64,000 nucleotides of DNA from contig OX387204.1 in assembly GCA_947561715.1 (NCBI GenBank), forward strand, positions 13,087,001 through 13,151,000, written 5' to 3'. The notes under the pieces are model-generated. The model had not been told where the DNA came from and searched no databases. It was given only the letters and a program-made list of their open reading frames with translations. The position numbers and the translations under genes are program-made. The stretch is from Ascidia mentula (lineage: Eukaryota > Chordata > Ascidiacea > Phlebobranchia > Ascidiidae). Positions within the stretch are counted from its first letter, which is position 1; every line of letters begins with the position of its first letter. This document shows, one piece after another, positions 1,034-42,438 of this stretch.

Positions 1034-4000
1034 ATGTGTACCACTCAAGTATTGAAACAGGTAATCTTCTTGTTTTTTTGCGTTGTACCCTTATCGTTGC
1101 TTTTGTCACTCACAACATTGAAAAGTTAGTAATTTGCGCGGATTATTATAATGTTTTTAGTAGGTTAATATGCATTATCTGATGTTTTTTTGTGAAAAAT
1201 GCAAATTTACGGAAAGTGTGTGGAGGATATAATATTTGTTCCGATCTTGGTCACTCGTAAAATAATGATTGTCAACATAGCGATAGCACATACACACTAC
1301 ACGTAACCCAGATTGGAAAGTTTGCAAACTGCGCGGAGGATTTTTTTCTGTCGGTGGTGATTGCGCGGATTGTGCGCGGACTAGCGATTTTTCTGCGCGG
1401 ATTGTAGTAGATTTTTTTGTTGTTTAGTGGACTGTGCCTTTAGTAACAAGCCTATTTTCCCTTTGGCAAAAAATATTGGAATAATGTATTTTTAAGAACC
1501 GATTCATAATACTTTAATGTTATTAGCGTTTACTTAAATAAAATTGCACTTTTCACAGACGATTATATACGCTTTTTAAGCGGCTGTCAGTTACAATGGC
1601 TTGGCGTAGTTGGCACGGGTGGCGAAAGCTAGTTGGAGGGTTGCGAGTTGAAATCCCGTGCTCACAACTTTTTTTCTCCAGGAACTTATTAATGTTTTAT
1701 TGGTGTTCTTCTTTCTGGCACGGAGCTACAACGCATATAACCTAACAAAACCATTTGCCACAAACAACTGTGAAGCAAAAAAAAGTGTTTCAAAACGTTT
1801 TAACTTTATTTACACTTCATTTGTAACTTGCCAGTTGCCATCACGAAAATTTATGCAAGAAAGGGAAAGTTTGGTTCCTAATTTTTTTGTCGTGTATCCA
1901 CTTTAGAAGCAGCGCCATGCCTATGTTTACTCCGACGATCTTTCGATACGGGGATGAGTGCCATCCCATGTTTCTTGCTGCCTTTAACATAAAGTTTGGC
2001 CATCTCGTATAACGCCTCGTCACACTGGATTGCAAGGGGCATAGACCAATCAACGATTGTTCTGTTTTTGAGAACTTCAAAACTTTGTTGCCCATCCGTT
2101 TCTTGTTTTTCCATTACTCGTAGAATGACTCGGCAATTGCTTCAGTGCCTGTTTTTGCATACATAATATGAAAAACCAAGCAAAATTCCTGACCAATTTT
2201 CGTGTATAGCTCGGGGTCGATGTACCTATATGGCGCGGATAAACTTTCTTTCGTTAAATAAGGCAGCAATAAACGATCTTCCATCATTGAAAGAAACTTT
2301 TGGTGAACCTTTTAGAAACAAAGAAGGATAACTCAAGCAACCGAGTTGTAGAAACATCAATTTTAGAAAATGGCTCTTGGCTTGGGTCGCAATCTTCCGT
2401 CTTAATGTGATCAAACATTACGGCAAAGTGAGTTTGAAACATAGGCTAATCCCCAAACTACATCAAGTAAGGTTGACTTTAACCTCCTATATATGCTGGC
2501 AGAAAACTCGGCCCAAGAATTCAAAAACGCATGTTCTTCCAAAATAAGATCAAATGGATTTCCAAATTTTACGAATGTGCGTAATTTCGCCATTATAAAA
2601 TACAGATGGCAAATACTGCATTCACCCCGCTCGACCTTGTCCTTTTTTCGTTGTTCGTGATTTTCGAGAGAAGGAGAGAAAAAAATCAACGCTCAGGTCA
2701 GTGAAGCATATCCAAAGGGCCTTCAAACAGAACATTGGTGCAGAACAGTTGGGGTCTTGGGGAAAAGTCATCCAGTGTTGCAAGACTTGGAGCGATTTGT
2801 GCGCGGATTAATAATTTTTGCGCGGATTGCTAGTAAAATCACGAAAATTGCGCGGATTTTTGACCGATTTTGAAAATTCTGCGCGGAGGATAAATCCTCC
2901 GCGCACGACATATTTTCCAATCTGGCACGTAACCTTGATAGGACAACACATCTGAAACGTATTGTTGAATTGCAAAACTATTGTGATAATCTTCAAATAT
3001 AAAATGTAGTTGTTGATTTTTTTGGTGTGAATTGCTGGTAAACTGTTGGCTAATGTTTTTAGATTAACAAAGATGACCTTAAACATGTTAAACCACTAGG
3101 AAGTGGAACTTATGGTGATGTGTCTCTATGTGAGCATGAAACCTATGACCAAGTTGCTGTGAAAAAAGTAAAAATCTGTGGGTCAGAGGAAAATAAAGCA
3201 AAACTTACCACAGAGTATGCACAGTGTTTTTTTTACTACTTTCTTTATTATTGGATTTAAAAATAAATGTCAGTTTTTAATTATGTGGTAAAACTATCAT
3301 TAATTTGTGAAATATTTGTACATTTGGCAAACAAATCTGCTTTAATTGACAAATAAACTTTACCTGAAAACTACACAATCTTTATGTTTATTTTTGGAAT
3401 CATCAAGTTGTATAGCTATTATGAAACTTTTGTCTTGCAAACATGATTTTTATTGGTTTAGATTCAAAAAGGAATCCAAAATTCTTTCAAAACTTAATCA
3501 CAAAAATATCATAAAAATTTTTGGATTCACTGAATATTGTGATGGTTTTGGGTTGGTCATGGAATATGCTGGGAAGGGAAACTTGCAAGATCTTCTATAT
3601 AATAACAAGAAAAATAAAGTCCACATGAGTTTATCAACCAAATTACAAATTTTGCAGCAGATAACAAATGGATTGGATTATCTGCACTTGAGAGAAGAAC
3701 CTACAGTCCACAGAGATTTAAAACCACAAAATATTTTAATTATGTCAGATGACACAATCAAACTCGGTGATTTTGGCTCATCCAATGTTCTAAAAGCCTG
3801 TGGTGCACCTGTAACCACATTAAGCCACCAGTCAAAACAATTGACCATTTGCTATGCTGCTCCTGAGTTCATGAAAACCTGTCAAACTACCTCCACAAAG
3901 GAAGATGTCTATGGGTAATTTTATTGCACATGTTTTTTACACACGAGCAATCAGATTAACCCGCAAATGTTCTGTTATCCGACTGATTTACATTTTTCAG

Positions 4001-10000: not shown

Positions 10001-12344
10001 AAAGCCAGTAACCGTTAATCTTAGTACTTGGTGCTCTGCAGCAGAAGCAGACAATCCGGTTGATGTTTGGGTGAGACTTTTTTTTAAAACTAAGTCAAAA
10101 TAATATGCTATTATTCTACCTCAATTGTTCCAACATGTTTTCAACATAATTGATATAAGAGTTTTATAACCCCTGGTCTATAGTCACACTAAGCTGTACT
10201 AATGACACCTTTTTGGTCAGAACGATGGTGATCTGTATACAGCTCACTAAATATAATTTTTTCATTAAAAGCAAAATTTGGTTAGTATAATTAAAATTAT
10301 CTAAACTGCTGATGTGAAAACAAATTCTGGTTTAGATTTGGTTTGTGTCATTTTTTTGTGTGTGTTTAGATTGAGACCAGTTCTGATGGCGTTCACTGGA
10401 TAAAAAGGCAATCTAGGAGTCTACAACAAAAGAGAGAAAAACAGCTGACGTTTGAAAGCATGCACTTTTGCTTGTAAGACGGTGTTTTCAAAAATAGTGC
10501 AGAGTAACTTCGAAAAGTATTGTAGTTCCACAACAGAAAAACGCAAATAAACAGAACTAATTCTTAAAAAGATAAAGAAGTAGGTTTTTTTTTATATGTG
10601 TCACTTTATTTTTCAGGATAGCATAATATTCATAGTATTCTTGATGAGCGAAACTTTTTGACAATGTTAAATTTATCTTACAATCCATTTTTATCATATG
10701 TACATTTTTGTGGAGACTTTAATTTAAATCTTTTTCTTTTAATCTAAGGTGCTTCTTGTTATTTTAACAACCCAGAAAATCTTTTTTAGTGTTCGTTGGG
10801 TTCTTGACATGTTGAAGTTATGGTGTGGTATTAAAAAGCACAAAAGCATCAACTTTATAAAAAAGCACGAAAATGTGTGGAAATGCACGATACAAAATGT
10901 TGATATGGAAAAGCCAAATGCGGAAAAATATGCTTTGCACAATGACTCAATGACTTTAAAGTATGGATTATGTACTAGAGGTGTAAATGTCACATTATAC
11001 TTAATTTAATGGTCTTGAGTATCCTTGAATTTAAATTTAATTGCCACCAGTGTAGTGTGTATTTAAAACAGATGTTGATATGTGTTATAACCTAATACAC
11101 ATAAAGCAGAATTTAAGTGACTGTAGGTGAACTATAAGTTTATTGAGGTAAACATTATACCTAAATCTTTATAATCAAATAAAATGTAATAAAAATTCTT
11201 GTACAATGATTTTAGTTACACCCACACAACTGTTCAAATGAAGCTGTCAAGTGCAAGTCTAAAGTTTGCTCCAGAGACGCGAATAATCGAGGACCCTTTT
11301 TCCTTGCCCATTGTTAGTGTTGAATTCATTGTGGAGGAAAAGGCAACAGATGACAATATTGTCAAGGAGTTTGAGTTGCATGAAATTGACTTTGATGTTT
11401 CTGAAAATGATGACAGTTTGAAAAACAACAAATTTTTTGTTGACTTTGAAACCATCCAAAGTATGTTTTTTCCCAAAAAAAATTAACTATTACCTCCCAG
11501 ATACATTTTGTGTCATAACAAACATAAAATATGGTAAATAAATTTATATGCCTGATTAACACTGAAAATCACCTTGGTTGATATTTAGATTTCCAACAAA
11601 AATTTTTATTTTTCTATGTAGATATACATGAATTTTACGTGAGGTGTAAACAAATCCAAGATGGTGACTGGGAGCGGTTTGTTCGATTGCAATTGCGCCT
11701 TGATGAACATTGCATTCAACAGGCCCAAACAGATCATCAATCTGACATGAAAAAAAGGCGGATAAAAATGCTAAAAGAGTGGCGCAAGAAACCTGGTAAT
11801 TCAGTATCCACCTAAACAAACTTCTGTTTTAATTTTTATGTTTCCATGTCTGTTCTTACTTGTGATTGAACATAATTGTTGATCCAATGTGAAACAGTAT
11901 AAAACAAGACACAGGCTGCATGACACCAGATATCCCCCGACTAGTTAAAAGCCACTACTTGTAAACCATTCCTCCACTAGAGTTCAGAAGAGACCCTGTA
12001 TTGCACAAAGTTTACTTACCAATAAACATATTTTTGAAAACAGACACAAGTTTACATGCATTGGGAGTACTTGTCGACAAGTTTCTTACTGACTTGGGTA
12101 AGGTTGTTTTTTTTAGTGGGCTAAAGTAATGAGTATGTCACAGGTAATAAATTCTTCTGCCAGATGACCTCTGATTTATTCTTCGTCTTGTTAATATTTA
12201 ATGCCAGGTTGGTTATTTAAACAAAAGTTTTAAATTGGAGCAAATAAATGTTTAGCTGATGGTACACGGACAGTGCATGATGTGGATGATGATGAAAGCC
12301 AACAGCCAACATACCAAGTTTCCTCTCATCGAAGTGAACCCTAA
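1034..12344 (+). CDS. Gene A: protein kinase-ZU5-UPA-Death domain protein (RIPK/PIDD-like)
   Basis: Proposed 22-exon gene, 1067 codons, phases consistent throughout: 1034-1060, 3063-3214, 3462-3914, 4001-4239, 4533-4657, 4952-5007, 5063-5127, 7536-7732, 7807-7938, 8431-8583, 8919-8975, 9045-9258, 9330-9497, 9568-9620, 9739-9894, 9951-10070, 10370-10473, 10790-10960, 11216-11460, 11622-11795, 12044-12097, 12256-12344. Domains in order: kinase, charged linker, N-domain shared with gene B, pre-ZU5 domain shared with gene B, ZU5, UPA, Death domain, acidic tail. The likely role is intracellular Death-domain signalling, as in RIPK1 or PIDD1. The kinase and the ZU5 half are joined through a good donor at 5127 whose phase fits the acceptor at 7536. 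They could instead be two genes. The 9-codon first exon is the least certain part. Introns hold a hAT-like element, a SINE cluster and two degenerate hAT-like pieces. Confidence 0.7.
1308..2925. mobile_element. hAT-like DNA transposon in intron 1 of gene A
   Basis: The element starts CCAGATTGG and ends CCAATCTGG, a perfect short terminal inverted repeat, and is flanked by the 8-bp direct repeat CACGTAAC (1300-1307 and 2926-2933). An 8-bp duplication is the hAT superfamily hallmark. Both ends carry clusters of a TGCGCGGA motif (about 1333-1410 and 2798-2900), which look like subterminal transposase-binding repeats. Near the right end a palindrome around GGAGGATAAATCCTCC is visible. The minus strand holds short broken reading frames (about 1841-2690) that I cannot match to a transposase by eye, so it is either a decayed autonomous copy or a filled non-autonomous one. 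Confidence 0.8.
3063..4239 (+). CDS. Gene A kinase domain (exons 2-4)
   Basis: Three exons encode a complete protein kinase core. Visible motifs: glycine loop GSGTYGDV, ATP-binding lysine in VAVKKV, the alpha-C region FKKESKIL, catalytic loop VHRDLKPQNIL, metal-binding LGDFGS, YAAPEF for APE, DVYGFSMVAYEVLTG in helix F, and PENRPTM near the end. All residues needed for catalysis are present. The VYGFSMVAYE and NRPTM forms resemble the tyrosine-kinase-like/RIPK branch. The domain starts almost at the N terminus, as in RIPKs. Substrates are unknown. Confidence 0.9.
4533..5219 (+). CDS. Gene A post-kinase linker exons and possible kinase-only end
   Basis: Exons 4533-4657, 4952-5007 and 5063-5127 encode a hydrophilic linker rich in Asn, Lys, Ser and Asp with no recognisable fold. 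The last exon has a strong internal donor (GAAA|GTAAGA after 5127) in the phase needed to join the exon at 7536. If that donor is skipped, the frame stays open for 30 more codons through a charged, coiled-coil-like stretch (KKAVEEAHHKRQDTLELL) to a stop at 5217-5219. That would give a kinase-only isoform. Confidence 0.6.
5341..5790 (+). mobile_element. tRNA-derived SINE cluster in gene A intron
   Basis: Positions 5537-5609 form a tRNA-like head: acceptor ends GCTCCTG/CGGGAGC pair, the D arm is GCTC/GAGC, the T arm is GTGAG/CTCAC with TTCAAAC, and A- and B-box promoter sequences are intact. The anticodon arm is off register by one base. Reading the loop as CTGGTTA would give a GGU anticodon, unusual for a eukaryotic gene, so a SINE head is more likely than a tRNA gene. 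A block of about 84 bp beginning GCGATACGTTAGCTGTG occurs twice in direct orientation (5341-5424 and 5705-5788). The second copy ends in a short TACTACTACT run, like a SINE tail. This suggests one SINE inserted next to or into the tail of another. Confidence 0.6.
6292..6481. mobile_element. Possible degenerate hAT-type MITE
   Basis: This intronic piece begins CAGGGCCAGACT and ends in a partial inverted counterpart, AGAACTGCCCCTG, a pattern seen in hAT-type miniature elements. No convincing 8-bp target duplication flanks it, so it is old or misjudged. The rest of the gene A intron from 5791 to 7535 shows nothing else I can name. Confidence 0.3.
7536..8975 (+). CDS. Gene A N-domain shared with gene B (exons 8-11)
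   Basis: Exons 7536-7732, 7807-7938, 8431-8583 and 8919-8975 encode about 180 residues of mixed helix/strand character with no family I recognise. The second exon ends LAIWNKPFKIEHYLYGV and the third begins GYVFLLVTNAD. Gene B has the matching IAVMWNKPIIIGTAADK and SSIFLMVCTMN at the same exon boundary, both in phase 0. The 'WNKP' core plus the following hydrophobic strand is the clearest conserved signature. Gene C lacks it. Function unknown. Position before the pre-ZU5 domain in A and before the NACHT domain in B suggests a protein-interaction module. Confidence 0.65.
7987..8367. mobile_element. hAT-type MITE in gene A intron
   Basis: An insert of about 380 bp starts CAGTGGTTCCCAAACT and ends AGTTTGGGAATCACTG, nearly perfect inverted repeats and the well-known terminal sequence of one hAT subgroup. 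There is no coding capacity. The flanking 8-bp sequences do not match clearly, suggesting an old insertion. It lies in the intron between the two central exons of the gene A N-domain. Confidence 0.65.
9045..9620 (+). CDS. Gene A pre-ZU5 domain shared with gene B (exons 12-14)
   Basis: Exons 9045-9258, 9330-9497 and 9568-9620 encode about 145 residues just before ZU5. They align by eye with gene B 28759-29439: both have a LLLVPYD/LVVLKYN opening, an 'EF...GG..Y' stretch, FNAFTLP versus INAFLLP, a 'GKKQILTIK' versus 'GRKVLTMKT' strand, and a later helical part (LCEFLFVKQ). I do not recognise the family. The terminal small exon (GYGNTSTVPYHPYFEPIK) corresponds to GYNQPLTKYDPIT in gene B and is a spacer into ZU5. 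Confidence 0.65.
9739..10473 (+). CDS. Gene A ZU5 domain with HFC junction (exons 15-17)
   Basis: Exons 9739-9894, 9951-10070 and 10370-10473 give a ZU5 domain: GSYEYISEVSSIIGPKGG, VVFPKDALLRDTRITLTSY, LKCEPHGIQFQKPVTVNL and SSDGVHWIK are classic ZU5 strand motifs as in PIDD1, UNC5 and ankyrins. The domain ends FESMHFC. His-Phe-Cys (codons at 10463-10471) sits where self-cleaving ZU5-UPA proteins have His-Phe|Ser or Ser-Phe|Ser. Cys could act as nucleophile in place of Ser, but that is inference. Intron phases (0,0,2) equal those of genes B and C. Confidence 0.85.
10790..11460 (+). CDS. Gene A UPA domain (exons 18-19)
   Basis: Exons 10790-10960 and 11216-11460 follow ZU5 directly and match the UPA position and size. 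The first starts VRWVLDMLKLW, parallel to WIINWILDGF in gene B and WKVIVKWFVDLY in gene C. The second holds the beta-rich part (VQMKLSSASLKF, KFFVDFETIQ). Exon order and phases 2 and 1 are the same in the three genes. In NLRP1, CARD8, PIDD1 and UNC5 this domain packs against ZU5 and links it to the Death-fold domain. Confidence 0.75.
11622..12344 (+). CDS. Gene A Death domain and acidic tail (exons 20-22)
   Basis: Exons 11622-11795, 12044-12097 and 12256-12344 encode a Death domain. GDWERFVRLQLRL is helix 1-2, the QAQTDHQSD stretch lies between helices, and IKMLKEWRKKPG carries the conserved Trp of helix 5. LHALGVLVDKFLTDLG forms the last helices. The final exon adds an acidic tail (VHDVDDDESQQP) and the stop at 12342-12344. 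Death domains assemble oligomeric platforms, so this is the likely output module. Confidence 0.85.
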
Positions 12345-14454: not shown

Positions 14455-17400
14455 GTTTGTTTAATCTAAATTTGTAAATTAATCTAAATATTTTTTTGTG
14501 TATTTAGTGCATGAATTGGGCAAGAAAGTTTTGCAAAGTATGGTTACTTTTACCACACTGTCTTGTCAAATCAACTTGCCAAAAGATTTTTTCATTTTAA
14601 AAAAAAATGATGGCAAACAAGACACCCTTTCAGCCAATTTGAATAGTTGTTTGGAACACAGCAATCATTCGAGAAATTTAAAGCAGGTTCTTCAAACAGC
14701 AAGACAGGGGAACAAAAAAATATGTTTTGTTGGAAACAATGTATGTGATGAAATAGTGTTCATAAATACATTGGCAAAGCAATATTTGCAAGAGCATTCA
14801 TTTTTGGTGGTTGTTGATGAGAAAACTATAAAAAAACATCATTCCATTCTCAGTTTTCTTTTGTCTACCTGTTGTGAAAAAGGATGGGTAGAAAGCATAT
14901 TAAATAATGCAGGTAAAAGTGATCTTGAAAGACAGAACAATGTTACTATAGTATTGCATGTATTATTGCCCAATGTCTGCAAGTTGATGGAAGAATGTAG
15001 TTGGCTTGATGAAATTGTTAATGATAAACTCTTGCCAAATGCTTTGAAAATTGTGGTTTGTTCACCGAAGAACTTAACAACAAAAGTGTTTGATGGGTAT
15101 TCATGCTACAATATTCTTGGCATAACAACAGAAGCACAACAGCAATTGCTCCAGGATGAATGCGGCAAAAGTGTAGATCTAACAAGAAGAAATCCTGATC
15201 TTCAGGAGTTGTGTTTTAGCCCTACCACTTGTAAAATGGTTGCAAAGCATGTTTCTCAATATGGGGAAGAGCAATTAGGTACATGTCTTTCTGAATTGGC
15301 TGCAAACCTGCTCTGTGTCATGAAACCAATAGAAGAGAGTGATATAAAAGACTTGTCAAGCAATGCCTTGCTTGCTGTGCAAAATGACAGCTTCACTGCA
15401 CCAGGCATGAATAGTTCACCATTTACTGTAAAATATGGTGAGACCCAGATTTATCTCACATTCTGGCGAGATTTTTTGGCAGCGGTGCATGTATGGGGTC
15501 ATCTAGATACAAATTTATTCAAAACAAAATTTGGAGATCTTGTGCAAGGCCAAGATAAAAACAATGTCATTCGATTTTTGTATGGCATGTGCAACCAAGA
15601 TGTTGTAAAAGAATTAAGTGTCGTGTATACAAAAATTGGAAGAAGTAAAAACAAGGCAGAGCAATTAGTAAAGCACATTCGCAAGCTAATAAAATCAAAA
15701 GGCAAATTACTTTTGCTTGGAGTCCAATTTTTAATGCAAGCTAAGAGTTTTTACAAGGCAATTAAGAGTGTGATTGATGCAGATATGCATATATCTAAGG
15801 TGAGCATTATGCCTAGAGACATATATGCCATTACAAACATGCTGAGCAACATTGGAAAAAAGCCCACTGTAAGTTTTGAGAGTTGTTTGTTTCCAGGCAA
15901 TGGGCTGAAAATCCTTGCTGATAATGCAGAAATTATGGAGGTAAGGTTGACTTTATTGCACTGATCTAGTTTATATTGAAACAGAATCATGCATATGGTT
16001 GTGCAGAGTGGTTCGCTGGGACTTAGCACCAAATATGAAGTAAGAAGTAAAACTGAATGGCTACATACCCTGGTTCCTTGGTTGCAAAACTTATCAGTTC
16101 ATATTTCTGTTGCTCCTGAAAGATTTTCTGAGTTACTTGGCCACACAAAGGTAAAAATGTTGAGTAACGAATGTATTAATTGGCGAGCTCATTTTATATA
16201 CCTAAATATATTTTGTTTGCCATGTCTGCTTGCCATTCCAATAATATTTATCTAACTGCATGTATTTTGAGAAAAATAACCATTATTGTGCAACATTTTA
16301 TAGTTGCATAGATTAGATATCAGCTTCAGTAGACTGACAAAACAACATCTATCCGTTGTCACAAACCTGCTTGATCTTAAAGAATTGAAATTAAACAGTT
16401 GTTCTCTTGATGAAGGATGCTTGACATTTATTGCTGATCATTATTCGTGTCAGAAGGTAAGGTTAATGAAAGTAACCCTGATGAAATCTGGCCGTATGGC
16501 AGACAAAATGTTGGAAGAATACTGTACGCTAATTTTATGCCAGAAAATGAGTTTATTCTAAATAAAAATATGCCTGGCAGAAATACTAGTACAATGATTT
16601 TTATTCAGATTAAAGTGCTGGATCTGAGCAAAAACGAGATTGGAAATGTTTTTCATAAATTTGGCAGCAGTAAAGTTGATGATTTAATTGCTACATCATG
16701 TGCCATTAATTCAAATCAGTTGGAACTCTTCATTGAAAATTGCACAAGACATCACACCAGAGTACTCAAATTTTTTTCATAGTTGTTTACTAGTATAAAA
16801 GTTTTTTTAAGCAAAAACACTATTTTTTAATTTTAATTTTTTGGTCCATACCGTTGACCTTTGTATGAATAGAAAGTAGCTCTCAATATGTTTTGTGCTT
16901 AGTTTAATTTATTGGATTTGTCTGCAAACAAAGAACTTCTAAGTGCAACAAACAATGTTTTACGGTTGTCCTCACTTGCATCATCTCTTGTTCTGGGTAA
17001 CTGTAACATTGGTTACAGAAGTTTGATCACTATTCTTCAATCAAGGCCAAATGAGGTACAACAGCCTGCATCATTGTGAAAATTGAACTGAAATGCTTAT
17101 AAATCAAACTTGGCCACCTCAACTAATTCCATTATATTTTACAGGAAATGTCAAGTCTAAGTTTGGAAAATAACAAAATTGATGATTCTTGTGCTGAGTA
17201 TATTGCCCAGTCAATGGCTTTTATATTGGAAATAAATTTAAATCAAAACACAATCACAAAAGATGGTTTGTTAAAAATATTAAATGGTTCACAAAAAATG
17301 GAAAGCATAGTAAGTTGTACAAATTAAAAGTTTAATGTAATATATGCCTTAACAATGTAATATACACCATACTAAAATTTTAAAGAAAAACATTAAGGTG

Positions 17401-20400
17401 AATGCTTTATTACAGAAGCGCAAATTCCGAGTATGCACTGTTCAGCATATTGTGTTGGTATGGAAATAGACAGAAAACATACAACTTAAATTTTTGGTCT
17501 TGTCACAGACAAAGAAGCTTCATCTAAATCGCAACTCCTTGGCAAGTCTAACAACAGAAGATGTAACAAACTTTGGGTCTTTGGAGGAACTTTCATTGAA
17601 AAACTGTGAAATCTTAGACCATGTGGTCAAATATTTGAAAGAAATTGCAGACAAATCAGAGGTTTATTTTCGCAAAAACTTTTTTTAGATTTGAAATTAC
17701 TTTGGCTAATATTACAGATTTTTTGTTTTTAATGCTGTTTACAGAATGTACATGCAATTTGTCGATTGTGGTTTATTGGTGACCTTAATTTTCTTAAACA
17801 ATCCAAGAAAAACAAGTTTAGATTTGCAATCTGTCTTAAATTATTACTATTCAAAGTTTTTCTTTGTTATGACACAGGTTTTAAGGTTTGTTGCATATGG
17901 CACAGTTTTCATTTAAAACAATAAACTTAAAATAAGTTGTGCATTAAATCAACCAAGAGCAAGTGCTTTGAGTGAGCAAAGTTTTTGAAAAATGAACTAA
18001 ATTGTTCAGTTATTTTGAAAAAATAGTTTTCTATTTTTTTCTCTTTTAGAATTTTGGGCTGAACATTAACAAGATACCAAGAAAACGTAAAACACTGTCT
18101 TCACAGAAAACTAAAAAAATACCAGTAAGTAAAGCAGTTTAATACTGTTTGTGCTTCACATAATTTGCATTGATTATGCTAACTATTTTTTTCAGAAACT
18201 TGGTAATGGTGGCTCTCTTCCACTTGAGGTATATATTAATGTTTGTGGTTTAGCATGCTGTATGAAATTAAGTCGTGTGACATAAACAGTTTTAGTCGTG
18301 TTAACGTGTAATAATAGTAAATTTTTTGTGTTAATAAATTAATATCTTATACTGGTGCTCGTCGTCTTTTACTCCTTTTGGTATTCTGATACTGTATGCT
18401 AATATTTGCATGTTTCTTGCCCCAACTGCTTTATAAAAAAATTCCTTAAATTCAAATTTATATTGGGCAAAGTACAATATAAGACAGCATTTTTTTTTTG
18501 TAGAAAGACAAGTTTGTGCAAGGAAAGAAGAAAGAACAAGTCAAAGCAGAGGTAATTTGACATAGTTTGGAAATGTATGCGTCATAATAGTGTCAAAAAT
18601 TGGTGTGCAAATATCATTAACATTTTTACAACAAGCATGGTTGGTAGCCAGCACATCTTGTGTTGTATTTTGTTAACTGACTCACATAAACACTTTTATG
18701 TAGTTTACTGCTGAACCAAATGTGTATCGGTCAAAAGCAGATAAATCTGAAACACAGCAAACTGTTTTATCAAGTATAGAGGTTAGTTGCTTTATTTTAA
18801 TTTAAATTAGTTTTATACTGTTTATGCTTTTTACATAATCTACATTGATAATGCTAACTATGTTCTATAGAAACTTGGTTATCATGATTCCCTTTCAATT
18901 GAGTGAAATATTAATGTTTGTGGCTATGCAGTATGAAATTAAGTGGTGTAGTATAAACCTTTTATTCATGTTATTATTTAATAATGGTACATTTTTTGTT
19001 TACACTATTTTTTAATTGTTGTTTTTTAACAGGAATCAGATTCCCAGAAGCTAGAGGTAAGCTTGGTGTAAATGTTGTACTAAACAACTTAGTCAGAAAC
19101 ATGCTTCTGCGGTACAATAGCATGAAAAATTTGGTCATGTCATTCATTGTTAGTTCTGTGAAAATTTCGATTATATTTAGGTCTAATCTCCACATGTGCA
19201 AGCAGGGAACAATTAATTCAAAAAGGGTTAGCTTTCAACACTAACTGTCATAAATATTTATTTTTTTGTAAAGCTCTGAGCCCATTCAATCCTTGCCTTC
19301 ATTGAATTTTATATCAATGTTTTGCTTTTTATTCACTTTTCCTTCTGACTTAAAAATATTTTATGTCAATAACCCAATGTCTAAATGTTTAACTAAATTA
19401 GTTTCGTTGGACAAACACAAACAAAATAGTATATCGAGACTTACCATAGCTGTACAAATCCTGTGTAACATTACAAATACCTAGTACTCGCATGCTAACT
19501 AAGCTTAATTGTGTGTGAAGAAAGACTTAAAAAGTTTTACAATAAATTCATAATTGTTTTTAGAGTTTCAGCTCAAACTGGGCATTTGACGATGAAAGAA
19601 GCAGTGAGGTAAATGTGAAAAATAACCCTTTGAAGATTCTATTGGATGTTCTCTAGTTAAAATTCTTGTGTTAACAGGGTTTTAAATCTTTTCATTCCCC
19701 CATGGAACAAGAAATGTCAAAAGAGGTAAATTAAGCTTTTTGAAAAAGCTTTTGTTGTATCAGCACAATAATAAATATTTCATGTTAAAAACAGTGCAAA
19801 TTTTATTATAACTAGTAATTGCTAATGTGCAGGTTTTATTAACTTTGCAAGTAAGCCAAATATTTACAATGACAGTATCTCAAATGATATGGTATGCTAA
19901 TATTTGCACATTTCTTGCCCCAACTTCTTTATAAAAAAAAATTTCTTCAAATACAAATTTATATTTATTATGATTCTACAATGGGTGAGATTTGCAATAT
20001 CCTGTTTTTGGAAAAGTACAATATAAGACAGCAAACTTTTTTTATAGAAAGAGGAGTTTGTGCAAGGAAAGGAGCAAGCACAAGCCAAAGCAGAGGTAAT
20101 TTGACACAGTTTGGAAAATGTATGCATCATAATAGTGTAAAAATTGGTGTTCAAAATATCATTTAAATTTTTACAACAAGCATGGTTGGTAGTCAGCACA
20201 TCTTGCATTGTATTTTGTTAACTGACTCACATAAACACTTTTATGTAGTTTACTGCTGAACCAAATGTACATCAGTCAAAAGCAGATGAATCTGAAACAC
20301 AGCAAACTGTTTTATCAAGTTTAGAGGTTACTTGTTTGATTTTATTTTTTTTAGTTTGTGAAGTAGTTTAATACTGTTTATGCTTTCTAACATAATTTGC

Positions 20401-29400: not shown

Positions 29401-30908
29401 GGTTATAATCAACCTTTAACAAAATATGATCCCATAACGGTATGAGTAAATGTGTGATTGTAGAACGAGGATTTCTTTAAAATTTGTCTTGTGTTTTGTC
29501 AATAAGGGTGCTTATGATTTTATCAATGAGGTATCATTTAAAGTTGGTATTGAGTCAGCAGTACTGCAAGTCTCTGACTGTGTTGTAAATATACCACCCT
29601 ATGCTCTGGATAGAGAAACCACAGTGACTTTAACCTCATATTGTGGAAAAGCTGATCAGGAACAGGATAAGGTAGTTTTATTTTGGTACTTGTGTAAACA
29701 TTGCAAATACAGTGTTTTGTTGCTTAGACTTGCATGCTGCTCAAATGTGATCCACATGGTTTATCATTTAAAAAGCCTGTGGAAATAACACTGGGAAGGA
29801 GTTTAATATCAGACACACCTTGTTCTGTGATTGTAAGCAGAAAATATTACCAGTATGTTTGTTTAACTGCCGGGCAAAAATTAATCGGCATACAAACTTT
29901 TTGCAACAGGTTGAAGAAAGCGCAGATGGGGTGTACTGGAACAGACATGCTATAGTAACATTTAACCCTGACCAGAAGGGAATTACCTTTCAAACCACTC
30001 ACTTCACTTTGTTGGTTTTTTCTGTTAGACAGTATTCATGGATTGAAGTGTTAAAGATTTTGTTTAGTTTCAGATGGATTATTAACTGGATCTTGGATGG
30101 ATTTAATTTCCGCAAAGCGAAATCACTCTACATGATAAAGGAAAGTGTTATTCTGAAATGCATCATTACAGATGAGTTTCTTAAACTCCAAGAGCCCATG
30201 CCAACTAACTGTGTGTTTCATGATACGTTTATGTTGCGGTAAGTGGAAAGTCATCTCAGCTAATTTTATGCAAATTGTGCATAAAAATCAATTTTTTTTT
30301 ATGCAATTAAGACGAAATCAAGAAAATTTAAAGCTGCAGCTGACCAGTGATGAACTTGATATACAACCCAGTGAAGTTAAAATTGGTGATGGATTTTGTA
30401 GACCAAGGGTGGAAAAGCATTTTAATTTTTCCCTAGGTGTTGAAGGATCTATAAAAATTCATTGTAAAGTGTTTTACAATGGAAGTGAACACTATAGTGG
30501 TGTTGTCAGAATAGAATCAGGTAATTTTAATGTAAATAGAAAAGGGAAGTAACAAAAGCTGTGAAAATTTTCTTGTATGTTACATCAAACGAAAGATGTC
30601 ACAAGGATTTTAGGAGAATTCACAGAAGACAGCTGGAAGGAATTTGCAAGAAGATGTTTGCAAATTGATGACACACTCCTAGCTGATGCCAGGCAACATC
30701 ACCAGGAAAGCATGGAGCAAAGACTGCATATCTATAGGAGGTGGCAAGGTGGTATGTTTGAATGATCTTTTTTTACCAACTGTTCATTTAACTTTGTTTT
30801 AATTTGCTAGGGGGAGTGGAAAGTTTTAGGAGTTTGGTGAAAGATTTTTATGCTGAGCAATTGCGTGGTAACAAACCAGAAACAAAGGATAAAAATAAAG
30901 ATAATTAA
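13369..30908 (+). CDS. Gene B: NACHT-LRR-ZU5-UPA-Death protein (NLRP1-like architecture)
   Basis: Proposed 54-exon gene whose exon lengths sum to 6171 nt, 2056 codons plus stop. Order: N-domain (13369-13614, 13805-13951, 14010-14141, 14211-14249, 14355-14454), NACHT-like exon (14508-15940), LRR exons (16007-17661), linker micro-exons with six repeat units (18050-28487), pre-ZU5 domain (28759-29184, 29306-29333, 29402-29439), ZU5 (29507-29671, 29728-29832, 29910-30010), UPA (30074-30238, 30312-30520), Death (30596-30751, 30811-30908). The layout matches NLRP1 (NACHT-LRR-FIIND-CARD) with a Death domain in place of CARD, implying a cytosolic sensor. The intron after 14249 uses a GC donor. The Met at 13369 is the first usable start. 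A BEL element lies just past the stop, apparently in the 3' UTR. Confidence 0.75.
14508..15940 (+). CDS. Gene B NACHT-like domain with degenerate P-loop (single 477-codon exon)
   Basis: One large exon, as is common for NLR NACHT regions. The strand before the P-loop (NKKICFVGNN) is present, but the Gly-x-x-Gly-Lys-Ser/Thr signature is replaced by GNNVCDEI, with no Lys-Ser/Thr. The Walker-B-like strand VTIVLHVLLPNV also lacks the usual acidic run. Downstream NLR landmarks are clear: LKIVVCSPKNL (sensor strand), YNILGITTEAQQQLL (the 'GF.E' helix), CFSPTTCKMV, then the winged-helix/helical part with QIYLTFWRDFLAAVHVW, equal to the 'LTFQEFLAA' motif. It is probably a NACHT fold that no longer binds ATP in the usual way. 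Confidence 0.75.
16007..17661 (+). CDS. Gene B leucine-rich repeats (six exons)
   Basis: Exons 16007-16150, 16304-16456, 16609-16761, 16903-17055, 17145-17309 and 17509-17661 are 144-165 nt, mostly 153 nt, all phase 0, each giving about 50 residues with paired LRR motifs (LHRLDISFSRL, LKELKLNSCSL, IKVLDLSKNEIG, FNLLDLSANKEL, MSSLSLENNKI, KKLHLNRNSLASL, LEELSLKNCEI). Exon-per-repeat-pair with phase 0 is typical of NLR-type ribonuclease-inhibitor LRRs and allows repeat gain or loss without frame change. This would be the ligand-sensing part. Confidence 0.85.
18050..18228 (+). CDS. Gene B linker exons before the array
   Basis: Exon 18050-18124 encodes a basic stretch (INKIPRKRKTLSSQKTKK) that could act as a nuclear-import-like or simple charged linker. 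It joins the last LRR exon in phase 0. The 33-nt micro-exon 18196-18228 (KLGNGGSLPLE) has good splice sites here only. Decayed copies of it are visible in the later repeat units. Confidence 0.55.
18504..19725 (+). CDS. Gene B array unit 1 exons
   Basis: Exons 18504-18551, 18704-18781, 19033-19056, 19564-19608 and 19678-19725. The first exon (KDKFVQGKKKEQVKAE) is the most diverged from the others. A remnant of the 33-nt micro-exon near 18872-18904 keeps an acceptor but has lost its GT donor (GAG followed by TGAAAT), so it should be skipped or would end the frame. Confidence 0.75.
20048..24385 (+). CDS. Gene B array units 2-4 exons
   Basis: Unit 2: 20048-20095, 20249-20326, 20595-20618, 21117-21161, 21230-21277. 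Unit 3: 21600-21647, 21801-21878, 22147-22170, 22668-22712, 22781-22828. Unit 4: 23151-23198, 23352-23429, 23695-23718, 24224-24268, 24338-24385. All exons keep phase 0 and canonical AG/GT borders. Residue changes are few (for example SPMEQ versus SLIEQ in unit 3). Units 2 and 3 are the most alike over their introns as well, pointing to the latest duplication or conversion. Confidence 0.75.
24705..27375 (+). CDS. Gene B array units 5-6 exons
   Basis: Unit 5: 24705-24752 (IVEFVQEKEQ), 24907-24984, 25252-25275, then a 828-bp MITE within the intron, then 26614-26658 and 26728-26775. Unit 6: 27097-27144 (KVEFVQEKEQ) and 27298-27375 (FTVKPNVHQLK); no further exons of the unit follow. All are phase 0, so the MITE should be removed with its intron. 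Confidence 0.7.
25727..26554. mobile_element. TTAA-flanked MITE inside array unit 5
   Basis: Compared with the same intron in units 1-4, an extra 828-bp block begins GACCGCATATCAGTA and ends TACTGATATGCGGCC, a near-perfect inverted repeat, flanked on both sides by TTAA (25723-25726 and 26555-26558) where other units have one TTAA. TTAA duplication is the piggyBac hallmark. Because the inverted repeat could be extended by A/T, a TA duplication (Tc1/mariner-like) cannot be fully excluded. It has no coding capacity. Inside, two diverged copies of a segment around AATCACA...GGCCC are visible. Confidence 0.85.
27708..28487 (+). CDS. Gene B linker exons after the array
   Basis: Exons 27708-27782 (FHSVEVKKEKDVVLTKR), 28162-28251 (MEHFFFIDKKVKKENVNVH) and 28440-28487 (KGELLHGNERAQVDPK), all phase 0. 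The 48-nt exon is the same length as the KEEF exon and resembles it, so it looks like an old diverged copy of the repeat unit. Their inclusion is predicted from splice sites and phase only. Confidence 0.55.
28759..29439 (+). CDS. Gene B pre-ZU5 domain
   Basis: Exons 28759-29184, 29306-29333 and 29402-29439. The 142-codon exon holds in one piece what gene A splits over 9045-9497, with matching stretches (LVVLKYN, EFGVEGGQVYMS, INAFLLPSLGRKVLTMKT, later helical FASNILQNIAF and VEAFQQMNFEFFGKQ). The two small exons are the spacer to ZU5. The domain is not recognised. Its presence before ZU5 in both genes suggests it is part of the signalling core. Confidence 0.65.
29507..30520 (+). CDS. Gene B ZU5-UPA (FIIND-like) with HFT junction
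   Basis: ZU5 exons 29507-29671, 29728-29832 and 29910-30010 show GAYDFINEVSFKVG, VNIPPYALDRETTVTLTSY, LLKCDPHGLSFKKPVEITL and SADGVYWNR. The domain ends FQTTHFTL; His-Phe-Thr codons are at 30000-30008. UPA exons 30074-30238 (WIINWILDGF) and 30312-30520 (LKLQLTSDELDI, IKIHCKVFYNG) follow. The 63-nt intron 30011-30073 between them is itself open and in frame, so its retention would insert 21 residues right after the putative cleavage site. Phases 0,0,2,2,1 equal those of genes A and C. Confidence 0.85.
30596..30908 (+). CDS. Gene B Death domain
   Basis: Exons 30596-30751 and 30811-30908. EDSWKEFARRCLQIDD is Death-domain helix 1-2, LADARQHHQESM the middle, and RLHIYRRWQGG carries the conserved helix-5 Trp. 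SFRSLVKDFYAEQLRG is helix 6, followed by a short charged tail and the stop at 30906-30908. It is closest in pattern to the Death domain of gene C (FYEFARRFLMTDDA). Confidence 0.85.
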
Positions 30909-31006
30909 ATATGTATATTTTTAGGTGAACGGAATCAGCTCTACAATGTCAGTAATCCATAAATTGTAGTAAAAATGACCACAATTCTGAATAATTGTAT
31001 AGAATG

Positions 31007-32140: not shown

Positions 32141-32187
32141 TTATTTCTGAAGAAGCCAGATATTGCTGACCCGTCAGCATATCTGAA

Positions 32188-36231: not shown

Positions 36232-36764
36232 CAACTTGTCATTCTGTCCATGCATGTATTTATATATACCTTGCTTTCTTCACAAGCATTTCATATGGTA
36301 CTCTCTATTCTGCCTTCACTGTCATCCTGCTTTAGACTTCCATTGTGCACTGCCTCATTGTGTAATTTCCATTGTGTAAAACCTGACAACTTGTGTGAAA
36401 GTCACCTGTTTCTTTTCTTGCCATTCCTGTCATCATATGATTGTCTGAAACTTGTAAACCTTTTGATACACCATTGTATTGCAGTATTGAACAACCATTA
36501 CCTGTTGTAGTTTCTCAGTTATATGTACCTCATTCATGTAAACCATTACATGGTGCAAATATGTAGTCTTTTGGTACTGAAGCATTTGTTCCTATTGTGC
36601 AGCCAAAGTGTTTACCATGACCTCATGTGCCAACATTTCTAGACATTGCCAATGTGTTGCCTTTCTATGTCACCATTGACTCTTCACTTGTGTGTATGTG
36701 TTCACTGTCCGTCCTTGTTATTAGAAAAATCTTTCACTATGGTTCAATATTTTTGGGGCCGGTA

Positions 36765-37421
36765 TGTTACGGACAGTTTAACAATTTATTAACATTTCTA
36801 TGTTACTTGAACCCTTGTGTGTATATGTGCACATTGGCATTACATCATCGCATTCCTTTGTCTCAATAAAGCGTGCTCGCATGGTTTCCTGGCGGGAAAT
36901 AGCCACAGTAATCGTTAACATTAATGTAGATTAGACCTTGTCGAGATTCTAGTGGTACTTCCATATTTGTGACAAGTGTTATGTAGACTTAAAGGCCTGT
37001 CATGTGCCTCTTTCAGTGTTTTGTAAGCCAGTTGACTATGTAGCAAATTTGTGACTTTGTTTGTATGTTTTAGACGCTAAGATAGCTCCACAGTGCCTTT
37101 AGAAACGTGGTACTGTGACCTTCAGAAATCTCAATCGTGCCCTGTTTGTACTGTTTACCCCGATGCTGTCCCATTGCTGATGTATTGTGTTGTGTCTCAC
37201 CCATTCTACACTGCTGTCATCCCGAATCTGTGAACGATTTAGCGTACTGATTCGTCGTTCTTTCACTGCACAATATATTCACTAAAAACCAAGAGACTGG
37301 GGTGCGATTGCGAATTTCTGACTCATCGTACCTGACGTTGGTACCTACGAAGACCCGGTATAGGCAGACCGATAGCGTAGGCCTATGCGTGACATTCAAC
37401 CAATAAATTTTGGCCGTCACA
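36765..37421 (+). repeat. 3' LTR of the BEL/Pao element
   Basis: 657 bp, TGTTACGGACAG to GGCCGTCACA, nearly identical to the 5' LTR and followed by the GAATG target duplication. Confidence 0.95.
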
Positions 37422-38118: not shown

Positions 38119-41100
38119 ATGAATGAGGTAAGTCTTTATGGTAGACTATGGTTTGTTTTTTGGATTTTATTGTACTGCCAAGAGAATTTTTTGTACACCA
38201 AGCAATTTTTAGTTTAAGGTTGTAAAATATCATGGACGTTGATAAACCCATAGGGGTTATGAAGTCTGCTGACATACTAAATTACTGCCATGTGACAGTA
38301 GCATGCTACTTTGTAATAAAGTGCTGTAAAAAAATAATGCACCATAAATTGATCAGTGCATATTACTTACACTTTCCAAACATTTGACAGATAGAAGTTA
38401 CAGACCTAATCACATGCAGAACAGAGCATGATGTTCTATTTATAACAACAGCAGCAGTCTGCCGTTGGTGTAGGCACAGTCATATTGGGGATGTTCTTGC
38501 AAAATGTTACCGAGCTGATCAAAAGGCCATGTAAGTTACTGTTAAGTGTAAAAATATTAGGCAAACAATGTAATTCGTGGAGATAGTTATTTATATCCTT
38601 TTTAGATTTGAGGAAGAAGCTAAGACCTTAATCCAACTGAATCATGAGAACATTCTGAAGGTTTATGGAAAAACAAGTTGGGAGAAAAGTAGTGCATTCA
38701 TACTTGAGTTTCCAGAATGTGGCAATTTGCACATACTTCAACATGAGGAAAAAATAAAGTTACCTTGGAAAATAAAACTGAATCTTTTCCATCAGTTGAT
38801 ATGTGCTATTTACTACTTGCATTGTGAGTTGAGTTCTCCATACACACATGGACTCATCAAACCAGAAAATATTTTACTTGGAAAAAAAATGCAAGTTAAG
38901 TTAACTGGCTTTGAAGGATGCAAAGACAGAAGCAATCCTTTATATTCTGCTCCAGAATTGCAAAGACGTATGTCACCACCAGACCCTGCAATGGACATGT
39001 ATAGGTAAAGCAGTTGAATATTTCTTTTAAATTTATTTATTCGATATTATTGAAAGAATTTTATGCTTTTGCAGTTTGGCAATGGTGCTTTATGAACTTT
39101 TAATTGATCAGAAGGTTTATTATGATTCACCCATGCCCCTGGAATTATTGCAATTTCATATTTTCTCTGGTGTACGCCCAAATCTCCAAAGGGTCAAAGA
39201 AGTCATAGAAATTGAGAAAAACAAGGGAAAACACCTAAAGTTTGTTGAAGTTGCAAATGAAGTCATAACGACATGCTGGGATGGATCAGCTATGAAACGG
39301 ATGACAATTAAAGAAGGTATTACTAATTTTTTCAATTATGTTTTTAATAATTTCTTGCTTTTAAATGTAGTTAGATCCAGAATTGAGTCACTCGTTTCAT
39401 TTGCTATTAAGAAGACTTCTTTAAATATCATAGAGCAAAAATTGCACAAAAGGCAAAAAAAGGGCAAACATCAAAATGACACAGAAATAAGTTTGAATAA
39501 TTTTACTGGATCATTTTTGGAGGTTAAAAGTAAGTAATTTGTACACAAACATTTATTTTATCAAACTTTTGAAAATAGTTTGAGTTACTGAGCAGTAAGT
39601 TAGCACTAACTTCTATTAATTTATTTGTTAGAAACATTTGTTCATGACCAACCAACCACAGATCAAGAAGACACAGAAATTGCTGCAAAAAATGAAAATC
39701 TAGGTGAACAAGATAGCAAAGTGCAGTTTTCAAATGAAAGTTATTGCTAACTATTATTTATTTTGTTTGTTAGAAATATTTGTTCATGACCAACCAACCA
39801 CAGATCAAGCAGACACAGAAATTGCTGCAAAAAATGAACATCCAGGTGAACAAGATAGCAAAGTGCAGTTTTCAAATGAAAGTTCCCGCCAACATTTATT
39901 TATTTTGTTTGTTAGAAATATTTGTTGATGACCAACCAACCACAGATCAAGCAGATACAAAAATTGCTGCAAAAAATGAACATCTAGGTGAACAAGATAG
40001 CAAAGTGCGGTTTTCAAATGAAAGTTATTGCTAACTATTATTTATTTTGTTTGTTAGAAATATTTGTTCATGGCCAACCAACCACAGATGAAGCAGACAC
40101 AGAAATTGTTGCAAAAAATGAACATCTAGGTGAGCAAGATAGCAAAGTGCAGTTTTCAAATGAAAATGCAGTAAGTTATTTTTTGCTTGACCCTGTTTCT
40201 GTTTATTGACTTGTGTTTTGTAGACTCATCAACTTGAGGAGCCACATATTCAAAATGTATCGGTAAGATGTTTAAGTTTGTGATAAGAGGTAATTGGTTT
40301 TGAAAAAGTTTTGCTACATCCATTGCAGGGAGTTTATGAGTTCATTGATGAAACATCAGCAGTGGTTGGCCCAAATGGAGCAAAGTTGTTTGCCGGTGGA
40401 TGCTCTGTTGATGTACCAGCTGGTGCTTTACTACAAAGCACAAAAATCACAATAAATGCCTATTATGGAAATAGGAATGAAACAGTTTAGTGTTGTTACA
40501 GCTTTTTTAGCAGTTTTTAGCTGCGTATATCACCATTTATATAATTAGACTGGAATCACACCTCTACTAAAGTGCTCCCCACAAGGATTGCTGTTCAACA
40601 TACCCATTACAATAACATTGGGTTCCAGTTGGATTGCAGAGAAACGTTCACCAACTAACTGCTGGGTTGAATCATTCATTTAATATTCACTTTACGTCTA
40701 AACTAACTCATAATATTGCATGATATCGTCTAGATTGAAACAAGTGAAAATGGTTGGATTTGGAGTCAATATCAGCCAGCTGAATTTGATGAAAACGGCT
40801 GTATTACCTTTAAAGCAAGACACTTTACATGGTATTTAAAAATACGATTGTTTGTAAACGTAAATTGTCGTTTTAACTAAACAGTATTTTTTTAAAATGT
40901 AGCCATTCAGCATTTTTGGCAACTATTTGTGTTAATTTTGATACGAAATACATTATATTTGCTGCATAACAAAATACTCCTTGGTACAGGTGGAAGGTCA
41001 TTGTAAAATGGTTTGTTGATTTGTATCACTGGAAGAAAAGGAAAACTCTACAATTTATGAGAAAAAATGCAAAAAGCTTTGAATGCGTTTTTACAGAAAA

Positions 41101-42438
41101 TCTGCTGTCATTAAAAGAAGCTGAAAGTTGCCCAAACTCGATGCATGTTGATGTGCTTGATTTGTGGTAATGTGCGATGTTTTGTTTCTGTCAATTAATG
41201 AGCATAGGACTGTGTTACAGGTCTTCCCAGAGCACCATAATCCTGAAAATAGAATGCCCTAATGTTACATTTCAAACTGCATCTAAGCCAATTGAAGATG
41301 CATTTTTTGAAATAAAGGATTCTGTGTATTTCGACATCGCTGATTTTACCCCACCAGATACAGATACATGTGAAATTACTTACACTGTTTTGCATAATGA
41401 TGAAAAGTTGAGGAGAAAGACATTTCGAGTTGACTGGGATACATTTAATGGTGAAGTTACAAACCTTTCGTATTTTATAGCTACTATTGTAACATCGTAT
41501 TTAATAGTTGCAAACACAACAATTTGTTGTAGCATGCTACTGTTGTAACACATAACACAATAATTTAACCCGTTCCCTTTTATCCCAGTCTCTGAAAAAC
41601 TGGTAAATGCAACACGCAGTGTTTCGAACCAACATTTCTATGAGTTTGCGCGCCGTTTTTTGATGACTGATGACGCATGCATTGATGACGCCTCAGCTAA
41701 TTTTCGTAATGATTTCGCCCAGCAAAGACGCCACGTACTTATTGCTTGGAAGAAAAGTCATGGTAAATATGTCTAATCAAAATGATGTGTATCATTGACA
41801 AATGTAATCTTTTAACCTTTGTGGCAGGAAGAAATATGTCCGTGGAAGATCTCCGCAAAAAGGGCTTTGAGTTTCATGCTGCCAAAGGTAACACACGTGA
41901 TCATTTTGAGATTGCATAATACAAACAATAAACATAGCGGATGATAATAAATCTTTTAGTCAACAAACCCCTTATCACCCCCACTGTGCAAAAAGAAGTG
42001 GTGCAAAAACCTGCGAACACCTCAGGTAAGCAAAAAAATATTTTATTATGTCAGTATATGTTTTATATTTAATACATGCAAAAAAAGTAGCCACGAGACG
42101 CAATTTTCCTGGCTTTCGTGTAAATTGCTTGTGTGTTCAGTTTGAGTGGTATGACTCAGCCTTGACCGAGACAACGTATTTCAAATGCATTAACATTTCT
42201 AGCGTTGTTTTACTCTGCAGGCCCTTCGAGAATGGTGAATGCAAACTTGGCGACCATTGAAGGAGCAATTGTTGGACAGGAAAGTCTAACTATGAGCAAT
42301 TCTCCCATTAACAATAACTGTACTATACACTACCACTACTACAACGTGGTTTCTGATAAAACACACAAACCAGTAAAACCTGATGAAGTAAGAAAGAAAA
42401 ATGGCGAAGCCTCCCAACAAACGGGAGAACATCAATAA
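38119..42438 (+). CDS. Gene C: pseudokinase-ZU5-UPA-Death domain protein
   Basis: Proposed 19-exon gene, 870 codons plus stop, phases consistent: 38119-38127, 38391-38530, 38606-39004, 39075-39316, 39371-39529, 39632-39703, 39774-39845, 39916-39987, 40058-40170, 40224-40262, 40329-40484, 40549-40665, 40734-40831, 40990-41166, 41221-41450, 41589-41762, 41828-41887, 41960-42025, 42221-42438. The start is a 9-nt exon (Met-Asn-Glu) with a GTAAGT donor; gene A also opens with a tiny phase-0 exon. Domains: pseudokinase, basic linker, four tandem 24-residue repeats, ZU5, UPA, Death, Pro/Thr-rich tail and an Asn-rich end. It lacks the shared N-domain and pre-ZU5 domain of A and B. It may act as a regulator or decoy of gene A signalling (inference). 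Confidence 0.75.
38391..39316 (+). CDS. Gene C pseudokinase domain
   Basis: Exons 38391-38530, 38606-39004 and 39075-39316 follow the same exon order as the gene A kinase. FEEEAKTLIQLNHENILKVY matches the alpha-C region of A (FKKESKILSKLNHKNI) and keeps the Glu. The glycine loop is not recognisable. The catalytic loop reads YTHGLIKPENIL, so the HRD Asp is gone, and the DFG position reads TGFEG. YSAPEL, MDMYSLAMVLYELL and TTCWDGSAMKRMTI keep the C-lobe frame. Phosphotransfer is therefore unlikely; a scaffold or allosteric role, as for other pseudokinases, is plausible. Confidence 0.85.
39632..40170 (+). repeat. Four-copy 142-bp exon+intron tandem repeat in gene C
   Basis: Acceptor-to-acceptor spacing is exactly 142 bp (starts 39632, 39774, 39916, 40058). 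Copies 1-3 use a donor after CATCTAG|GTGAAC or its equivalent, giving 72-nt phase 1-1 exons (EIFVHDQPTTDQADTEIAAK-type). The last copy can read on through GEQDSKVQFSNENA to a strong GCA|GTAAGT donor, giving 113 nt in phase 0, which is what the next exon needs. In copies 1-3 that same stretch is followed by TATTGCTAA, so it behaves as intron. Repeat gain has thus turned coding sequence into intron. Confidence 0.8.
40329..41450 (+). CDS. Gene C ZU5-UPA (FIIND-like) with HFT junction
   Basis: ZU5 exons 40329-40484, 40549-40665 and 40734-40831: GVYEFIDETSAVVGPNGAKL, SVDVPAGALLQSTKITI, LLKCSPQGLLFNIPITITL and IETSENGWIWSQ. The domain ends FKARHFTW; His-Phe-Thr codons are at 40821-40829. UPA exons 40990-41166 (WKVIVKWFVDLYHW) and 41221-41450 (STIILKIECPNVTF, KTFRVDWDTFN). 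The donor after 40665 (TGG|GTTGAA) is weak, but the matching gene A exon ends the same way. Exon lengths 156/117/98/177/230 track gene A 156/120/104/171/245. Confidence 0.85.
41589..42438 (+). CDS. Gene C Death domain and tail
   Basis: Exon 41589-41762 holds most of the Death domain (NQHFYEFARRFLMTDDACID, RHVLIAWKKSHG with the helix-5 Trp). 41828-41887 adds the last helix (SVEDLRKKGFEFHAAK). 41960-42025 is a Pro/Val/Lys spacer. The last exon, 42221-42438, encodes GAIVGQESLTM, an Asn-rich stretch (SNSPINNNCTIHYHYYN) and a Lys-rich end. The Asn-rich alternating stretch is reminiscent of short amyloid-type interaction motifs, but it does not fit the RHIM consensus. Confidence 0.75.

Follow-up and report, generated by a model that had tools for sequence, protein, structure and literature searches.

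Receptors that cleave themselves within a ZU5-UPA region are best known from few proteins: PIDD1, NLRP1, and CARD8. Human PIDD1 is described in the available part of PMC9573974 as having a Death domain and two ZU5 domains separated by a peptidase S68 site. According to the available passages of PMC3210808, which treat PIDD, Nup98, CARD8, and NLRP1, the bond after a buried Phe can be opened by Ser, Thr, or Cys, and the Phe is needed; the His matters little in Nup98, and the fragments remain together. The same passages give the CARD8 motif as SFS and describe the ZU5-UPA-Death order of UNC5, with a Leu at the Phe place in UNC5b. The subject of this study is a window of 64,000 nucleotides from the ascidian Ascidia mentula (GenBank assembly GCA_947561715.1, contig OX387204.1, positions 13,087,001 to 13,151,000), in which three neighboring forward-strand genes, here called A, B, and C, carry ZU5, UPA-position, and Death exons preceded by kinase, NACHT-type, and pseudokinase exons, respectively. 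Judged from sequence, A, B, and C are probably members of a large family whose common core is a ZU5-UPA module of the PIDD1 type and which would comprise self-cleaving cell-death or immune receptors.

The genes resemble PIDD1 (LRR, two ZU5, UPA, Death) in the ZU5-UPA-Death order and in a candidate cut site ending ZU5. They differ from it in having one ZU5 domain, in the replacement of Ser by Thr or Cys, and in front ends of the kinase, pseudokinase, or NACHT type instead of LRR alone. With NLRP1 and CARD8 (the FIIND proteins) they share a candidate self-cleavage site between ZU5 and UPA, and in B, NACHT-type and LRR-like parts precede ZU5; however, Death replaces CARD, B is without a P-loop, and the triplet is HF(T/C) instead of SFS. 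UNC5 and the ankyrins are related through ZU5, but they lack the Phe-nucleophile site: the residue is Leu in UNC5b, and an ankyrin of the A. mentula genome (PDB match at an E-value [E] of 3.9e-16) reads DLP at the aligned junction place. RIPK1 likewise combines a kinase and a Death domain in one protein, whereas here ZU5-UPA sits between the two, and the kinase of C is a pseudokinase.

Other combinations have been described. NACHT occurs with ZU5 in sponges, ctenophores, and cnidarians (PMC12909245, PMC8260672), where the available passages say nothing of cut sites, of front ends of the kinase type, or of a Death domain within that chain. The amphioxus protein XP_035662392.1, listed in the available part of PMC9573974 as an LRR-ZU5-kinase protein, joins kinase and ZU5 as here, but its ZU5 precedes the kinase, while here the kinase comes first. 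Ascidian NLRs are given as NACHT-LRR or NACHT only in the available text of PMC11508797, and that of PMC8195603 describes TRADD-N proteins with FIIND or UPA-ZU5 for which autoproteolysis was predicted. A literature search found no paper describing a kinase or pseudokinase front end on a ZU5-UPA-Death protein and none on such a ZU5-UPA family expansion in tunicates.

The shared exons and the cut-site codons

The initial annotation of the window had proposed ZU5-UPA-Death exons of the same order and intron phases in all three genes, each with His-Phe-(Thr/Cys) codons followed by a phase-2 intron two bases later. The codons and the intron were found exactly as proposed: the triplets at 10463, 30000, and 40821 read HFC (A), HFT (B), and HFT (C), each closes the third ZU5 exon, and a phase-2 donor lies two bases on. 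The common series consists of three ZU5 exons, two UPA-position exons, and Death exons in identical order, with phases of 0-0, 0-0, and 0-2 (ZU5), 2-2 and 2-1 (UPA-position), and 1-1 (Death), all GT-AG. When the forward frames of the window were compared with one another, the first ZU5 exon of A was 45% identical to that of C (E 1e-15) and 43% identical to that of B (E 4e-11). The module exons of A, B, and C are homologous. The proposal therefore held for exon homology and phases, but not for the domain names throughout, as UPA has no profile support and Death was recognized by Pfam only in C.

The domain searches suggested with that annotation recovered ZU5 in A, C, and, most weakly, B (the last two under the curated cut-off when scanned as long models), Pkinase in A and C, and Death in C (E-values in Table 1); they recovered neither UPA nor NACHT, nor Death in A and B, where Death is known only via alignment with C. 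Pfam scans of the three modules returned no CARD match; a Death-like region is found instead. At E up to 10, Pfam ZU5 matched 14 of 14 modules (best 8.1e-7). The profile of these 14 modules matched ZU5 parts of ZO-1 (3e-6), ankyrin-2 (8.6e-5), and UNC5B (0.5) in the PDB. The name UPA is applied by position and by alignment among A, B, and C only.

The family across the genome

The genome searched comprised 196 Mb in 79 contigs. It holds two matches above the curated cut-off to glycoside hydrolase family 6, which among animals is known as a mark of tunicates; 14 control genomes gave none, in agreement with a tunicate source. Searched at E up to 1, the A module matched exons 127 times, which corresponds to approximately 92 ZU5 loci outside the window, many of them clustered on contigs C70, C71, C69, C52, C1, and C2; these loci were merged by hand from the 127 rows once those lying in the window or matching Death alone had been set aside, and the faintest of them, at E up to 0.7, are unverified. 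Twenty regions outside the window were fetched, 19 of which had ZU5. The proposed pattern, i.e. one module with a conserved candidate cut site behind swapped front ends, was supported and reaches far beyond the window.

The junction was compared across an alignment of 28 ZU5 domains, among them those of A, B, and C. Phe was present in 27/28 and His in 24/28, and the residue after the Phe position was Ser (16), Thr (9), Cys (2), or Ala (1), the background frequency of Ser/Thr/Cys being 19%. By column information, Phe ranked fourth and His sixth of 115 columns. Clustering at 60% identity yielded 16 ZU5 groups, each with a member bearing Phe and a nucleophile. Because the loci were mostly found through ZU5 exons 1 and 2, the junction was no selection criterion; the end of the third ZU5 exon was chosen by phase and by eye, and one ZU5 of L033 (stops in the exon, ending HFS) was excluded from the 28. 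Altered triplets were read in L036 (NTA), L034 (RFC), and L040 and L044 (both EFS), and these paralogues may represent naturally occurring forms that are cut slowly or not at all.

Given the conserved triplet, self-cleavage is the most economical reading, and we infer it for A, B, and C. The triplet might instead be a structural remnant, with the Phe packing in the ZU5 core of proteins that are uncut scaffolds like UNC5 or ankyrin. That the Phe lies buried within the fold according to PMC3210808 (passages available), that NTA, EFS, and RFC occur as natural variants, and that most residues around the site vary among the window genes would fit such scaffolds. Nevertheless, the uncut ankyrin and UNC5b do not keep Phe plus nucleophile, and a nucleophile retained in 27 of 28 domains, with Ser, Thr, and Cys interchanged, is expected from chemistry, not from packing. 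We regard the scaffold explanation as unlikely.

A PIDD1-like locus, L038 (contig C67), has two ZU5 domains (E 1.7e-13) ending HFS and HFT. Its Death-like exon was matched by our own three-sequence profile (2.1e-8) and by no Pfam or PDB entry. Because of the Death output and these two ZU5 domains, PIDD1 rather than NLRP1 appears to be the nearest kin, and the FIIND/NLRP1 label originally given to the module was dropped.

Other module ends and arrangements were seen. L026, L032, and L039 combine a hydrophobic segment, ZU5-UPA, and HFS, and some of them finish in VQIG or VQVG stretches; HFS is present in all six ZU5 proteins that are encoded by one exon and bear such a segment. By eye, some paralogue ends (e.g. 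VQIG, VQVG) and the part of C past Death look RHIM-like, and Pfam RHIM matched 0/5 tails. At L028 (C1:1125611-1125793), an exon is 46% identical to the A Death exon, and no ZU5 was found in the 9 kb fetched.

Front ends and gene boundaries

C is the only clean single-gene chain among the three: 16 GT-AG exons form an open chain of 803 residues from the pseudokinase to the stop codon, the first N-lobe exon not being placed in the model. Its linker is a 108-nt exon (the last copy longer) repeated at a spacing of 142 bp with 34-nt introns. The initial annotation had viewed A and C as RIPKs with an inserted module. Kinase exons were confirmed in both, and C is continuous, but A appears not to be specifically RIPK and may be two genes. 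In the PDB, the A kinase matched JAK chains best (1.8e-36), then CTR1 (1.5e-27) and RIPK1 (1.8e-27); with JAK and CTR1 ranked above RIPK1, and JAK-family chains scoring at least as high as RIPK1, the kinase may not be specifically of the RIPK family.

B had been described as having the NLRP1 order with Death for CARD. Its large exon matched, at E 7e-8, a NACHT exon (Pfam 1.7e-14) upstream of a ZU5 exon on contig C1, and a weak LRR match follows; against the description, the P-loop is lost, and Pfam returned no NACHT match for the exon (best NLRC4_HD2, 0.014). Another LRR-like exon of B had no Pfam match. B was rejected as an NLRP1 member, having no P-loop and a Death-like region in place of CARD.

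The question of whether each front end shares a gene with its module was raised by a sequence just upstream of the window. At G000:C72:13079574-13083034 (L047 spans 13078074-13081532) lies a tandem copy of the A kinase and its linkers, 84% identical, in which frames are open in the six exons compared with A. Neither the module nor domain X (a domain common to A and B) was matched nearby, so that a kinase of this kind need not be accompanied by the module. Because of this copy, A may be two genes, with the kinase separate from the module. More broadly, A could consist of a kinase gene and an X-Y-ZU5-UPA-Death gene, and B of an X-NACHT-LRR gene and a Y-ZU5-UPA-Death gene; C would then be the sole true fusion, and front-end swapping in the window would come down to C. 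In keeping with such a division, there are gaps of ca. 2.4 kb in A (from the last kinase-linker exon, 5127, to the next exon, 7520) and ca. 11 kb in B (from the LRR exons to the ZU5 part), domain X of B begins at a Met codon, and a weak match to the C tail (E 0.04) occurs 2.6 kb downstream of the upstream kinase copy. On the other hand, X and Y surround the module in both A and B, the A chain is open from X through Death (12 exons), NACHT-ZU5 neighbors elsewhere stand in fusion order, and C itself has kinase-to-module continuity. Division into separate genes is a real possibility, although we lean against it; that the A kinase and the B NACHT-LRR share a transcript with the module is plausible. 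The likeness of domain Y between A and B was reached in 0/2000 shuffles for both exons jointly (second exon alone, p 0.07), and no Pfam family matched X or Y above its cut-off. A tail within A resembling the one near the upstream kinase copy was looked for and not found.

Elsewhere in the genome, NACHT exons of the L035 type that adjoin ZU5 loci are upstream and on the same strand in 6/6 cases, counting the nearest neighbor within 12 kb (one is the query itself; 6/83 NACHT rows were dropped as second fragments). Kinases adjoining ZU5 loci are also upstream on the same strand (2/2), which carries little weight, as by our estimate about one neighbor is expected by chance; 5/135 kinase rows (three window rows and two second exons) were dropped from this count. 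The nearest TPR exon is upstream of ZU5 in four cases and downstream in two, and at C2:2.25 Mb a kinase is succeeded by TPR and then by ZU5, all in the same orientation. In L033, ZU5 is preceded by LRR exons (2.5e-8). The kinase part (0.0011) and TPR (7e-4) of L044 are both under the Pfam cut-offs, and Pfam matched nothing in the LRR-like exon of L035. Among the front ends at other loci there thus appear to be NACHT, kinase-TPR, LRR, and membrane types. On C1, C2, C69, C70, and C71, NACHT exons (95 scored out of 317 candidates), kinases (134/444), and TPR exons (144/292) form large clusters.

It was also considered that the window holds decaying or decoy copies of a family that is active elsewhere. 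Catalytic motifs are lost in the B NACHT and the C kinase, repeats and a retrotransposon lie within the cluster, and the comparison of A with the upstream kinase copy (nonsynonymous divergence [dN] 0.083, synonymous divergence [dS] 0.126, ratio 0.66) indicates weak constraint. Yet the long chains of C and A are open, as is that of B from ZU5 to Death, and all three genes retain the junction; decay is very unlikely. The putative large intron of B (the 11-kb gap) contains a tandem repeat at window positions 18469-25726 (1552-bp unit, 4.7 copies, 94% matches). Between B and C, at 31559-37421, is a retrotransposon of the BEL/Pao type by eye, with long open frames at 32170-36231; its flanking repeats (583 bp) are 99.3% identical, and its insertion is therefore recent.

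Table 1. Features of genes A, B, and C, in window positions
Feature	Positions	Strand	Basis
A kinase exons; linker exon	3063-3214, 3462-3914, 4001-4239; 4533-4657	+	Pfam Pkinase 1.9e-50; VAVK, HRD, DFG kept
A candidate linker exons	4952-5007, 5063-5127	+	splice and codon scores; likewise open in upstream kinase copy L047
A domain X	7520-7732, 7807-7938	+	common to B; shuffle test p 0.002
A domain Y and short pre-ZU5 exon	9045-9258, 9294-9497, 9568-9620	+	Y common to B; chain open
A ZU5 exons	9739-9894, 9951-10070, 10370-10473	+	Pfam ZU5 5.7e-5 (long model)
A candidate cut site His-Phe-Cys	10463..10471	+	codons read; aligned ZU5 set
A UPA-position exons	10790-10960, 11216-11460	+	alignment with B, C; no Pfam UPA match
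A Death exons	11622-11795, 12044-12097	+	alignment with C; phase and reading frame
B domain X, from Met codon	13369-13614, 13805-13951	+	shuffle test vs A; open chain
B degenerate NACHT exon, no P-loop	14508..15940, preceded by exon 14355-14454	+	E 7e-8 to intact NACHT exon
B LRR-like exons, weak	16307..17661	+	LRR_6 3.4e-4 on 17145-17309, below cut-off; exon candidates
B domain Y	28823-28969, 29024-29190	+	shuffle test vs A
B ZU5 exons	29507-29671, 29728-29832, 29910-30010	+	Pfam ZU5 0.011 (long model); homology with A; chain open
B candidate cut site His-Phe-Thr	30000..30008	+	codons read; aligned ZU5 set
B UPA-position exons	30074-30238, 30312-30520	+	alignment
B Death exons	30614-30748, 30811-30867	+	alignment with C; no Pfam Death match
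C pseudokinase exons	38606-39004, 39075-39316	+	Pfam Pkinase 1.3e-19; HGL for HRD, GFE for DFG
C linker, one exon in four tandem copies; further exon	39632-39739, 39774-39881, 39916-40023, 40058-40170; 40224-40262	+	
C ZU5 exons	40329-40484, 40549-40665, 40734-40831	+	Pfam ZU5 0.0022 (long model), 3.1e-4 in module
C candidate cut site His-Phe-Thr	40821..40829	+	codons read; aligned ZU5 set
C UPA-position exons	40990-41166, 41221-41450	+	alignment
C Death exons	41589-41762, 41828-41887	+	Pfam Death 0.027 (long model), 7e-4 alone; Fas Death domain 0.05
C tail exons, stop codon	41960-42025, 42221-42438	+	open to single terminal stop; RHIM-like stretch by eye; no Pfam match

Proposed mechanism and its implications

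Several results weigh against assigning the genes to a self-cleaving family of the PIDD1 type. Pfam UPA matched 0/14 modules, the PIDD1-like one included; the UPA-position exons had no PDB match either, and a search of the genome with the UPA family profile gave no match anywhere, control genomes included. Although a donor GT two bases past the triplet in 16/16 modules compared favors the assignment, the phases of the paralogues had been imposed in the exon search. ZU5 exons 1 and 2 form one open frame in L027 and L031, and the whole module is a single exon in L026, L032, and L039 (C71). His is absent from 4/28 ZU5 domains, one of which (NTA) is also without Phe and nucleophile. The missing P-loop of B and the module-free kinase copy count on the same side. 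Finally, of the 19 ZU5 regions fetched from beyond the window, one (L038) had a significant Death-like exon, for which reason Death is taken as the output of a subset and not a general one.

If the genes are nonetheless self-cleaving receptors, the following sequence of events may be envisaged. The folded ZU5 domain would strain the bond after the buried Phe, and Ser, Thr, or Cys would attack it (an N-O or N-S acyl shift). The chain would then split in two, and its sensor-ZU5 and UPA-output halves would remain attached to one another. Engagement, alteration, or degradation of the front end would free the UPA-Death half, a step modeled on NLRP1/CARD8, and the freed half could nucleate a Death-domain complex with a role in cell death or immunity. 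The pseudokinase of C might act as a bait or ligand platform.

A wider reading, which we advance tentatively as having close to an even prospect, is that the PIDD1/NLRP1 switch serves as a general chassis. Dozens of receptors would share one exon cassette with a cut site (Ser/Thr/Cys) kept by selection, around whose fixed intron phases sensors (kinase, pseudokinase, NACHT-LRR, kinase-TPR, LRR, membrane) and outputs (Death or a RHIM-like amyloid) would be swapped and shuffled. Copies without Phe or nucleophile would then be natural uncut decoys or regulators. With dozens of loci and many sensor types, the family would show which sensors can drive cut-and-release, whether each of Ser, Thr, and Cys serves as the nucleophile, and whether degradation-release predates the vertebrate inflammasome; with a pseudokinase joined to the switch, it would also provide a type of bait that is new.

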